From Alkaliphilus pronyensis (GTDB lineage: Bacteria > Bacillota > Clostridia > Peptostreptococcales > Natronincolaceae), in assembly GCF_009017275.1 (NCBI RefSeq), contig NZ_WBZC01000023.1, positions 1 through 64,000 on the forward strand: a stretch of DNA of 64,000 bases, in the 5' to 3' direction. Under the pieces are notes generated by a model, which saw only the letters and a list, made by a program, of their open reading frames with translations, had not been told where the DNA came from and ran no database searches. The position numbers and the translations under genes are program-made. This document shows positions 58,667 through 61,656 of the stretch, in pieces. Positions within the stretch are counted from its first letter, which is position 1. Every line of letters starts with the position of its first letter.

Positions 58667-59980
58667 TTATATTTCTTTAAGGTCCTTAACATTACTCATA
58701 TATATTGTTATGCATATCATTATTATTCCAGAGACCATTGGTAGCAGCCATGGACTTATTGAGTCTACCAATGCACCAGCAACAATAGCACCTATTGGTG
58801 ATAACGCCATACCTAATGTTCCCAGTGTGCCAGTAACTCTGCCCCTCATATCATCTGGTATTAGCCTCTGTAATGTTACATTAACAGGGACATTAATGAA
58901 GATTGCAGCTACAGCCATCATTAAATATAAAATAGTCAGTATTATTAAATACTGTGTATTATTTAATACTATAAATATCTCGGAGGTTAACAATCCAACT
59001 ATAAAAATTGCTACAGAAAAGGTTGATAAACATATTAATATTCTTTTAATATTATTTTTAACTTCAGGTAAAATAGACAACACAATGGACGCCATTAGCA
59101 TTCCTATAGGAAACATCATATTTAATATACCAAATTGCTGTGACGAGAAGCCCCACACTTCATTTACTATGTAAGGTACGGGAACCGAAAGCCCCATCAT
59201 TATTAGCATATTAAAAAACACTACAAAGGAGCCTAATACCATAAGCCATTTTTGTGTTGCTATATATCTAAGCCCATCCATTAAATCAGTAAAAAATCTG
59301 TTATTCTTAGCTTTATCATTCTCCTTCTTATTGCTGGTTTTTGACTCTCCATTAATTCTATCCCGTACCTTAAAATCAATAAATGCTTCAGAAATACCAG
59401 ATATAATAAAGGACAAGCCATTAACCAAAAGAAATAGCCTTATATCTATTAATGCATAAACCAAACCACCAATGAATGGACCTGCTATTGAGGCCAATGA
59501 TGAAATTGTATGACTTAAGGAGTTAATACGAGTTAGGTTTTCATCGTCTACAAGATTGGGTATTGATGCAGCTAAAGGGGTATTGAAAAAAACATTACAT
59601 GTAGATAATAAAAAGGTTGTTATGTATATATAGCTTAAACTTAATTCATCAATTAAGCTTGCAGCTAGTAGTCCAAGCACCACAACCCCACTTAAGACAT
59701 CTAATAACACAACCATTTTTTTTCTGTCAAATCTATCAGCAATTACTCCAGAAATTGGCCCAAAAAGTACACCAGGCAAAGTTCCTAATGCTAAGGTCAG
59801 CGAAAAATTTAAGCCTGATCCAGTTACAGATAATATATAAAGACTTATTGCAAAGCTATAAATTCTACTGCCAAATAGAGAAACAAGCTGTCCTAGCGAA
59901 ATTAAAATTATATTTTTCTTTACAATTTCCTTAACAGCTATCTTCTCCTCTATTTCATTTTTTTTTAGCGTATTCTCCAA
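58667..59980 (-). CDS. MFS exporter, DHA3 (Mef/EntS-like) family
   Basis: A 437-aa 12-helix major facilitator. The cytoplasmic loop 2-3 motif is GVIADRFDRKKMVVLLDVLS, and the helix-4 region STCNVFFNTPLAASIPNLV and C-terminal IPDDMRGRVTGTLGTLGMAL are typical of DHA3 drug or macrolide exporters. The loop between the two halves is long, charged and Lys/Asn-rich. The leader upstream contains a terminator-like structure and a short frame, consistent with antibiotic-induced attenuation (inference). Actual substrate is unknown. Confidence 0.88.
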   Translation of the reverse strand: MENTLKKNEIEEKIAVKEIVKKNIILISLGQLVSLFGSRIYSFAISLYILSVTGSGLNFSLTLALGTLPGVLFGPISGVIADRFDRKKMVVLLDVLSGVVVLGLLAASLIDELSLSYIYITTFLLSTCNVFFNTPLAASIPNLVDDENLTRINSLSHTISSLASIAGPFIGGLVYALIDIRLFLLVNGLSFIISGISEAFIDFKVRDRINGESKTSNKKENDKAKNNRFFTDLMDGLRYIATQKWLMVLGSFVVFFNMLIMMGLSVPVPYIVNEVWGFSSQQFGILNMMFPIGMLMASIVLSILPEVKNNIKRILICLSTFSVAIFIVGLLTSEIFIVLNNTQYLIILTILYLMMAVAAIFINVPVNVTLQRLIPDDMRGRVTGTLGTLGMALSPIGAIVAGALVDSISPWLLPMVSGIIMICITIYMSNVKDLKEI

Positions 59981-60127: not shown

Positions 60128-60143
60128 TCAATATAAAATTTAT

Positions 60144-60263
60144 CTCAGCGGCGTTACTAACACTCCGCTTCTTAAGCGGGAGATAAGTGCCGCCAAGCTT
60201 CGAAATAAGGGCAACTAGAGTTCAGGTGAAGTTAAAACTCCATCTGAACTAAGTTTTCTTTAT
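60144..60263 (+). mobile_element. 121-bp structured repeat, copy 3 (one base deleted)
   Basis: Same ends as the other copies (CTCAGCGGCG to TTTTCTTTAT), 120 bp because one C is missing in the left hairpin. The left flank is AAAATTTAT rather than TTTTCTTTAT, which fixes the left boundary at CTCAGC and leaves only TTTAT/TTAT as the shared target-like tetramer or pentamer. It lies in the accessory gap between the exporter leader and the peptide gene. Confidence 0.75.
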
Positions 60264-60404
60264 AACTCTACTTCAACAGAAAATACACGTGGAAAATCAC
60301 TTTCTCTTTAAAAGGATATAATACTATGTAATTAATCTACTTGTTGAATTGTAATATACATCTTTAAGCTTACTATAAAAATAATAGAGTATTATGCACT
60401 AAAA

Positions 60405-60533
60405 CTAAGCAAAAACCTCAATGCTATATATTCTTGGTATATCCTCACTTGCAGCATGATAAAATGCTTTATTAAAATGTGAAAATGTTAGCAAGAATAT
60501 AAAAAGTATTACAAAAGTTAATTTTTTTACCAT
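60405..60533 (-). CDS. putative secreted signal-peptide precursor (42 aa)
   Basis: Read directly from the sequence. The ATG has AAAGGAGGAGCG upstream with ideal spacing. The peptide has a basic N-terminus MVKK, a hydrophobic core (5-18, LTFVILFIFLLTFS), then a polar tail SEDIPRIYSIEVFA after an Ala-Ala pair that could be the cleavage site. The layout matches PapR/Phr/SHP-type pheromone precursors. It is divergent from the XRE-TPR regulator across 93 bp. A -10 TATAAT lies in the shared intergenic region with a poor -35, as expected for an activator-dependent promoter. Confidence 0.72.
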   Translation of the reverse strand: MVKKLTFVILFIFLLTFSHFNKAFYHAASEDIPRIYSIEVFA

Positions 60534-60626
60534 TTACGCTCCTCCTTTACATTTTATAACTATTATAGTATAATTTGATACATATGAAAACCAGAATAAA
60601 TTACGTATTGTTAGGAGTTGACAAAA

Positions 60627-61595
60627 TTGTTTGAATCTTATAAACTTAAAGAGTTAGGCAAATTTCTTAAGTCAACTAGAATCAATTTAGGCTTTACTCA
60701 AAAAGATGTGGAAAAGATAACTGGTATAACCTCAGACTCACTAAGAAGAGTTGAGCAAGGACAAGTTTTATTAAGATTTGATACATTAATACTATTATCT
60801 ATGGCCTATAAAAAAGATTTAATTGAAGACCTGAAAGTGTATTGTAATTCAACTAGATTATTATCTTATTATACAAGACTTGAGGACTTAATAATTAACT
60901 ATAGATTGGAAACTTTGCAAAACCTAAGACAGGATTATTATGACTATATAAAATGTTTTGAGCCAGATACTCCTATAAATTATCATGTTGAATGTCAATT
61001 TGAAAAATTGCTATCTGGTATTAGTAAATATAATTCATCTACTCCACAAGACAGTTTAGAAGATTTTATAGATGCAATGAGGATAAATAACACATTGTTT
61101 AACATATATAATTACCACCAATTTAAATATACAGTCTTTGAAATGAGAATTTTACTCTTAATAGCTTTAGCACTTTCTACTAAAAATGAGTTTGCTTCTT
61201 CCAATGATATGTTAGTGTATTGTTTAAAGAGGGTAAATTTAAACCGAAATTCTACTTATAATGAAAAGCTTTTAGCTATTAAAATTTACTTTAACTTATC
61301 ATATAATTATCACCGAATAGATTGTCATGATAAAGCACATAAATACTCAGTTAAAGGTATTGACTTTTGCAACAAGCATTACATTTCTTATGGGTTAGCT
61401 ACACTTCTTTATCGTAAAGGTATTGCAGAATTTTTTTTAAATAAACCAAAATATTTAATGACCCTAAATCAATCATTAACTCTTCTCTTAATTGAGGAAA
61501 AAGAAAGCCTTGCTAAAAAATATATTGATATTACTTATAAAAATTATGGTATTCCTCTATCGTTAGATACATTGTGTAATATAAGCAAAAACTAA
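60627..61595 (+). CDS. XRE-family regulator with TPR-like domain (Rgg/PlcR/RRNPP type)
   Basis: A 322-aa protein. Residues about 8-70 form a helix-turn-helix (LGKFLKSTRINLGFTQKDVE, KITGITSDSLRRVEQGQ). The remainder is all helical with TPR-like pairs, for example NYHRIDCHDKAHKYSVKGID and YISYGLATLLYRKGIAEFFL. This architecture is that of RRNPP peptide-sensing regulators. I chose the TTG that lies 9 nt after AGGAG; an in-frame TTG three codons earlier abuts the AGGAG and cannot use it. A divergent secreted-peptide gene supports the assignment. No enzyme or membrane domain is seen. Confidence 0.82.
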   Translation: MFESYKLKELGKFLKSTRINLGFTQKDVEKITGITSDSLRRVEQGQVLLRFDTLILLSMAYKKDLIEDLKVYCNSTRLLSYYTRLEDLIINYRLETLQNLRQDYYDYIKCFEPDTPINYHVECQFEKLLSGISKYNSSTPQDSLEDFIDAMRINNTLFNIYNYHQFKYTVFEMRILLLIALALSTKNEFASSNDMLVYCLKRVNLNRNSTYNEKLLAIKIYFNLSYNYHRIDCHDKAHKYSVKGIDFCNKHYISYGLATLLYRKGIAEFFLNKPKYLMTLNQSLTLLLIEEKESLAKKYIDITYKNYGIPLSLDTLCNISKN

Positions 61596-61613: not shown

Positions 61614-61656
61614 CATCCTAGCTTTCTTTAAAAGAAGCTAGGATGAATATTTTTCT
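61614..61656 (+). terminator. intrinsic terminator of the RRNPP-type regulator gene
   Basis: CATCCTAGCTT and AAGCTAGGATG form an 11-bp stem around a 10-nt loop, followed by AATATTTTTCTTA on the plus strand. Confidence 0.8.

Follow-up and report, generated by a model that had tools for sequence, protein, structure and literature searches.

The window analysed here is the 64,000-nucleotide stretch at positions 1–64,000 of contig NZ_WBZC01000023.1 of Alkaliphilus pronyensis, whose genome assembly comprises 3.06 Mb in 94 contigs. Two genes lie head to head towards its end, a 42-amino-acid open reading frame (ORF) on the reverse strand and a gene for a 322-amino-acid helix–turn–helix (HTH) regulator on the forward strand. 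Both ORFs are found in the sequence as claimed in a preliminary description of this DNA, and their start codons are 93 bp apart. The features of the locus are as follows.

58667–59980, reverse strand: gene for a DHA3-type MFS exporter (best NCBIfam match TIGR00900, below cut-off), codirectional with the putative pheromone gene
60405–60533, reverse strand: putative pheromone precursor gene, 42 amino acids, MVKKLTFVILFIFLLTFSHFNKAFYHAASEDIPRIYSIEVFA, an ORF conserved beside regulator homologues
60426–60446, reverse strand: codons 30–36 of that gene, the proposed mature heptapeptide EDIPRIY (from tandem and core-terminated precursors in relatives and likeness to PapR7 and PapRa7)
60546–60574, forward strand: promoter-like site for the regulator, TTTACA-17-TATAAT, 11/12 consensus positions, −10 conserved in A. 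peptidifermentans
60562–60590, reverse strand: promoter-like site for the pheromone gene, TTTTCA-17-TATAAT, 10/12 consensus positions, −10 conserved
60589–60609, no strand assigned: operator candidate AACCAGAATAAATTACGTATT, conserved relative to A. peptidifermentans and not a clear palindrome
60627–61595, forward strand: putative receptor and regulator, 322 amino acids, TTG start, XRE-type HTH at residues 14–65 (HTH_3), C-terminal half RNPP/TPR-like at the family level
61614–61645, forward strand: hairpin resembling an intrinsic terminator, 3′ of the regulator

The ATG codon of the small ORF is directly preceded by GTAAAGGAGGAGC. The encoded peptide has the layout originally described for it, with a basic start, a hydrophobic core and a polar tail; secretion signals were judged throughout with a hydrophobicity script that looks for a basic start and a hydrophobic segment. 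The regulator is read from the TTG codon at 60627, which is preceded by TTAGGAG, and not from the start in the mechanical ORF list nine bases earlier, because its homologues begin with MFxS at the same place, several of them with ATG. The proposed HTH domain is borne out by an HTH_3 match (E = 2.1e-6; 28.1 bits versus a cut-off of 23), and HTH_3 is present in all 56 family members scanned. Neither a TPR nor an RNPP_C match was obtained for the window regulator in Pfam at E ≤ 0.01, either with the full-length protein or with its C-terminal half. An AlphaFold2 model computed from an alignment of the window and A. peptidifermentans sequences only has a pLDDT of 47 and a pTM of 0.30.

The nature of the C-terminal half was assessed for the family as a whole. 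A profile was built from the 56 of 65 relatives that are free of stop codons and longer than 270 residues. Its top match among solved structures is PlcR (PDB entry 2qfc; E = 3.1e-11, profile positions 6–303, almost its whole length). Much of this score comes from the HTH, since a profile of the C-terminal halves alone (52 hand-chosen sequences, 44 of the 56 plus eight of 36 distant ones) does not find PlcR among the solved structures, its best match being a designed TPR protein (E = 0.014). Searched one by one at E ≤ 0.01, the same 52 halves give matches to RNPP_C in 20 cases (best 4.7e-9), to TPR_2 in eight and to Rgg_C in two, while RNPP_C is found in 13 of the 56 full-length members; two RNPP_C matches that were viewed singly lie below the curated Pfam cut-off. 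The C-terminal half of the window regulator matches that of one RNPP_C-matching relative with a BLASTP E value of 5e-24. In PlcR, Asn201 contacts the backbone of the bound peptide. Asn223 of the window regulator was aligned with it by hand, and an asparagine is found at this position in 42 of the 56 members. For PlcRa, a docking model has Asn205 in contact with the main chain of the peptide (in a passage of PMC3519770).

Matches to the regulator are present in 13 of 60 relatives and, across the order, in 31 of 393 genomes (the window genome is included in both counts); at E ≤ 1 it has no paralogue in the window genome. For the survey of the order, 65 of 72 regulator rows were used and seven fragment rows were left out. 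Conservation of a small ORF beside the homologues, on the absence of which the preliminary description was to be abandoned, was indeed found: at 42 of the 65 places, a script requiring a start codon, a ribosome-binding site and a hydrophobic segment detects a divergent, secreted-looking small ORF 50–300 bp upstream of the regulator. A core of the type xD[IVLF]Pxx (script pattern [x][DEGN][IVLFYM]P) is present in 27 of these 42. The 15 ORFs without the pattern were inspected by eye, giving 11 with related cores (such as RDIPALF and, each twice per precursor, DDG[LF/LI]EWN, DDIWDLT and EDFDPM), two doubtful cases and two that are clearly not pheromones, namely a 210-residue membrane protein and the ORFs beside G127:C15. 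The script finds no such ORF at the other 23 places, two of which are at contig ends that lack upstream DNA. As a control, the parts of the loci more than 800 bp from regulators (304,219 bp; in four two-regulator loci the masking covered the first regulator only) were searched, and the core is present in one of 30 secreted-like ORFs. This single ORF is itself a pheromone gene, encoding GNEDIPRIFS and starting about 1.8 kb upstream of the regulator in genome G020. A DDE transposase gene (L105:10916-12673) separates it from its receptor gene. Within the genome of the window, 25 other HTH_3 matches occur, and none of the eight examined has a small ORF of this kind. Judged from these sequence comparisons, the pair in the window is more than a chance arrangement, its small ORF and conserved core recurring beside regulator homologues.

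A wider search at E ≤ 1e-20 gives matches in nine of 391 genomes of the class and 15 of 398 of the phylum, counts that both include the window genome and between which other genomes recur. From these, 36 new regulator rows were examined and two fragments were left out. A pheromone-like divergent ORF was accepted for nine of the 36, four of them xDxP precursors (L123, L124, L125 and L128) and five of a DxxEW type (L137, L139, L141, L143 and L147), and for none of the other 27; the pairing is thus patchy outside the order. No viral relatives were found among phage records or in scans of IMG/VR with single proteins, a search sensitive to close relatives only, and the plasmid matches are to three Rhizobium records that cover 39–45% of the query.

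Several loci show variations on this arrangement. In genome G187 (L108:10600-12068) two regulator-like genes stand back to back, and the space between them holds a divergent pheromone-like ORF for each, encoding EDDVPRIF and EDIPIIY. In L066 (EKDFPRLYS) and L136 (EDDSIEWN) the layout is not divergent, the pheromone-like ORF being located 3′ of the regulator and convergent to it. In L094 and L039, which belong to one genus, a second conserved small ORF (MVEFNWKKF... or MLEFNWTKF...) follows the pheromone gene codirectionally about 385 bp upstream of the regulator. Broken DIPRT or DIPRVY remnants, with a stop or a frame break, are found upstream of intact receptor genes in G187:C62 and G130:C3 (L088 and L065), and such receptors are possible eavesdroppers.

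Conservation in the 42-residue peptide is confined to the core at residues 30–37 (EDIPRIYS) and does not extend to the very last residues, IEVFA. A comparison with A. peptidifermentans shows four synonymous substitutions in the seven codons of DIPRIYS and none that alters an amino acid, and the residues immediately flanking them differ; the genes of the pair are intact in both Alkaliphilus genomes. The ends of the peptide are suggested by its relatives. Some precursors terminate directly behind the core (EDIPLVF, ADVPRLV, EDVPRLL and EDIPGVW). The same is seen in L060, where an additional ORF, transcribed divergently from a further regulator-like gene, ends in EDIPIIY. Others carry the core in tandem. 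A secreted-like precursor of 204 residues in genome G169 (L106:8817-9431, forward strand; also L090) contains 18 identical NDIPRIL units separated by linkers of Gly plus Lys or Glu, the units having 12 DNA spellings and a single amino-acid version. The precursors of L123, L125 and L124, from another class of the phylum, contain eight, six and two DIPRI cores, respectively, of the EEDIPRIF and DDIPRIW types. Among 33 hand-picked xxxP cores, for which Pro4 was the selection criterion, position 2 is Asp in 29, position 3 is Ile, Val, Phe, Tyr or Leu in 32, position 5 is Arg or Lys in 21 and position 7 is aromatic (Phe, Tyr or Trp) in 19.

A similar heptapeptide is used by PlcR and PlcRa. PapR7 is ADLPFEF, in which Pro4, Glu6 and Phe7 are important (as given in part of PMC6568020), and PapRa7 is CSIPYEY, internal to a precursor whose gene is located upstream of plcRa (as given in part of PMC3519770). 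Both fit xx[LI]Pxx[FY]. With its ends placed as proposed, EDIPRIY likewise has the hydrophobic residue at position 3, the proline at position 4 and the aromatic residue at position 7. Because of the tandem and core-terminated precursors and the likeness to PapR7 and PapRa7, the mature peptide in the window is likely to be the internal heptapeptide EDIPRIY, residues 30–36, and the tail that follows it is probably trimmed off. The pheromone had earlier been placed in the C-terminal portion of the precursor, but the core is internal and the last residues are not conserved.

Receptor and peptide also vary together. For 44 hand-picked pairs the identity of the receptor C-terminal halves correlates with peptide similarity (ρ = 0.385; none of 2000 permutations as high), the HTH alone giving ρ = 0.268. 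For the 33 xxxP pairs the C-terminal value is 0.379 (four of 2000 permutations as high), and a second group of receptors is paired with D(D)xxFEW[NH]-like cores. Shared ancestry alone could explain the correlation.

The two promoter-like sites between the genes overlap and point in opposite directions. A total of 16 such sites is found in the stretch compared with 11.5 in shuffles, so that the promoter scan by itself carries little weight; the −10 region and the block AATACGnnATTTnTTCTGGTT are conserved in A. peptidifermentans. In the relatives, 24 of 99 upstream regions contain a CCC-N10-GGG element between −28 and −59 relative to the regulator start, whereas the frequency in the remainder of the loci would predict 0.5. 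The consensus CCCRATnnnnRTYGGG is matched by 14 of these elements, and variants such as CCCGTATATATACGGG and CCCACTTTAAAGTGGG preserve the symmetry. A general inverted-repeat test gives a weaker result (24 of 63 versus 10.2). We read the palindrome as a candidate DNA site of the receptor; alternatively, it is possibly an RNA hairpin in the regulator leader. The window is without this palindrome, and AACCAGAATAAATTACGTATT stands at about the same place. A genome search for this operator candidate gives two matches, itself included, compared with three for a control. No second site beyond chance is therefore found, and the candidate, being unique in the genome, gives no hint of a regulon. The PlcR box is TATGNANNNNTNCATA. 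Allowing up to one mismatch, there is none between the two genes; the nearest is at 59443, inside the MFS gene, and the window contains four where 6.3 are expected.

The published description of RRNPP systems in PMC10075063 calls for a small secreted propeptide, an adjacent receptor gene and a receptor of 250–500 residues with TPRs. The propeptide of 42 residues (range 10–100) is encoded beside the receptor gene, the receptor has 322 residues with an N-terminal HTH, and the pair fits this description with secretion and TPR fold as putative features. The RRNPP-type pair put forward in the preliminary description is supported by the conserved divergent ORF, by the RNPP_C matches in 20 of 52 relatives and by the PlcR match of the family profile. 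We conclude, with a probability of about 85%, that the locus encodes a PlcR/PapR-like RRNPP quorum-sensing pair.

PlcR–PapR and PlcRa–PapRa of the Bacillus cereus group share with it a receptor of about 300 residues with an HTH and a C-terminal part that in the window pair would likewise bind the peptide, and a small precursor, putatively secreted in the window pair. Their heptapeptides follow xx[ILVM]Pxx[FY], and that of PapRa is internal, as in the window (the relevant part of PMC3519770). The differences are also clear. The new pairs reside in clostridial hosts, their cores mostly have Arg or Lys and Ile or Leu at positions 5 and 6, where PapR7 has Phe-Glu, and relatives contain up to 18 copies per precursor; the CCC-N10-GGG palindromes occur in 24 of 99 relatives and no PlcR box is found near the window pair. 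While papR is codirectional with plcR, the window pair and the 27 core-bearing pairs are divergent (both strands and both sides surveyed within 700 bp). The window pair is probably related to PlcR/PapR and would work like it, but it is not classed as PlcR/PapR proper, because gene order and PlcR box do not fit.

The Qsr/Qsp and QssR/QssP systems of solventogenic Clostridium are likewise clostridial RRNPP regulators with small secreted precursors, and the active QspB peptide of C. acetobutylicum is an internal, proline-containing heptapeptide, AEPTWGW, that counteracts QsrB (a passage of PMC7376267). They differ in that the qsp ORFs lie downstream of qsr, Qsp peptides conserve Leu, Pro and Trp, and the Qsr proteins are reported as a distinct cluster. 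QssR is grouped with nine-TPR folds and PlcR with five-TPR folds in part of PMC12700828. The streptococcal TprA–PhrA and Rgg–SHP systems combine HTH–TPR receptors with small peptide genes. The shp and rgg genes are divergent, as in the window pair, and the peptide patterns of both systems differ from the xDIP-type cores; an Rgg relationship has little sequence support, given the two Rgg_C matches noted above. The RRNPP and PlcR literature that was searched contains no description of this system, although members may figure in the propeptide set of RRNPP_detector, which lay outside the search.

In a PlcR-like mechanism the 42-residue precursor would be exported and trimmed to about EDIPRIY, and at high cell density the peptide would re-enter the cell through an oligopeptide permease; the genome encodes four SBP_bac_5 proteins. 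Once inside, it would bind to the helical C-terminal half of the regulator, and the complex would dock between the two divergent promoters. There the peptide-bound regulator would activate the pheromone promoter with its weak −35 element, creating a positive feedback to which we assign odds of about two in three. It would also limit its own promoter and possibly switch on adjacent export or biosynthetic genes. Every step of this scheme, from export, processing and uptake to peptide binding, the regulatory sign and the targets, is inferred.

In the window the pheromone gene is followed by the MFS gene alone, at a distance of 424 bp and behind a high-copy repeat. This dispersed repeat of about 127 bp (60139–60265, forward strand) has at least 40 further near-full copies in the genome with 89–98% identity (40 scored of 159 candidates), and the stretch around it folds stably (z = −3.8). 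No Rfam family is found within 58–64 kb, the repeat included, and it is possibly a miniature mobile or REP-like element. Neighbours of the pheromone gene were examined by family search in two other genomes. In A. peptidifermentans it is followed codirectionally by genes for an ABC exporter, NTP_transf_5, a PLP decarboxylase, an acyl carrier protein, an ATP-grasp protein, BtrH_N, a DegT aminotransferase and a radical-SAM protein; this cluster (L102, L033 and L096) also contains thymidylate-kinase-like and CYTH genes and looks like a specialised-metabolite cluster. In G020 the order is radical-SAM/B12, BtrH_N, radical-SAM/SPASM, an unknown protein and an MFS exporter that is 33% identical to the MFS protein of the window. 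Because of these neighbours, control of specialised-metabolite or export genes is plausible for the family. For the window pair itself the chance is about one in three, the DHA3-type exporter being a possible target. The NlpC/P60 gene, also proposed as a target, is convergent with the regulator and lies beyond the terminator-like hairpin; its control is unsupported, and it was dropped on layout alone.

The sign of the regulation could be the reverse, with the regulator acting without peptide and the peptide relieving it, as AEPTWGW does for QsrB in the portion of PMC7376267 cited above. Such repression could act through the palindromes that 24 of 99 relatives carry ahead of the regulator start, but the poor −35 element of the pheromone promoter with a candidate site directly upstream is what we would expect of an activated promoter, and the closest solved relative, PlcR, is an activator. 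The reversed sign is accordingly a tentative alternative, within the same RRNPP framework, and its odds overlap those of the main reading. The decay of the window pair, with the peptide still encoded and its regulon lost, is suggested by the high-copy repeat that separates the pheromone and MFS genes, by codirectional neighbours that are the MFS gene and then pyrimidine genes (named by eye) and by the broken pheromone genes beside intact receptors in two other genomes. The synonymous-only change in DIPRIYS and the intact genes in both Alkaliphilus genomes argue against it and make it improbable.

Toxin–antitoxin loci, too, can combine an XRE-type HTH protein with a neighbouring small hydrophobic ORF. 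The peptide would then act on membranes as a toxin or bacteriocin, with the HTH protein as its antitoxin-like repressor, and a Y4mF/HipB-like antitoxin model does match the HTH of the window, below cut-off. The conserved part, however, is a polar heptapeptide that follows the hydrophobic stretch and is repeated up to 18 times as NDIPRIL, and the regulator has a C-terminal half of about 240 residues that is of RNPP type in relatives, so that we regard a toxin as very improbable.

If the PlcR/PapR-like reading is extended to the family, the pair in the window would belong to a large clostridial clade of head-to-head pairs with the code xD[IV]P[RK][IL][YFW] and a sister code D(D)xxFEW[NH]. Its output would be tuned by the number of copies within a precursor, up to 18 heptapeptides in a polyprotein resembling that of yeast α-factor, and its members, in different genomes, would adjoin specialised-metabolite or exporter clusters that they probably switch on. 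We give this broader picture an even chance of being correct. PlcR is placed in the Bacillales, without evidence in the Lactobacillales, in a passage of PMC9765709, and a PapR-like code in Clostridia, if true, would carry a well-studied mechanism of signalling into a further class. The same source gives up to six copies per precursor and names multi-copy processing as an open question; 18 copies and a clostridial clade go beyond that account and bear on this question. In the tandem precursors the sequence by itself suggests where the peptide begins and ends, normally the hard step, and synthetic heptapeptides can be ordered for immediate testing. Links of the family with radical-SAM/BtrH_N clusters, seen in two genomes, may offer a handle on silent biosynthetic clusters.
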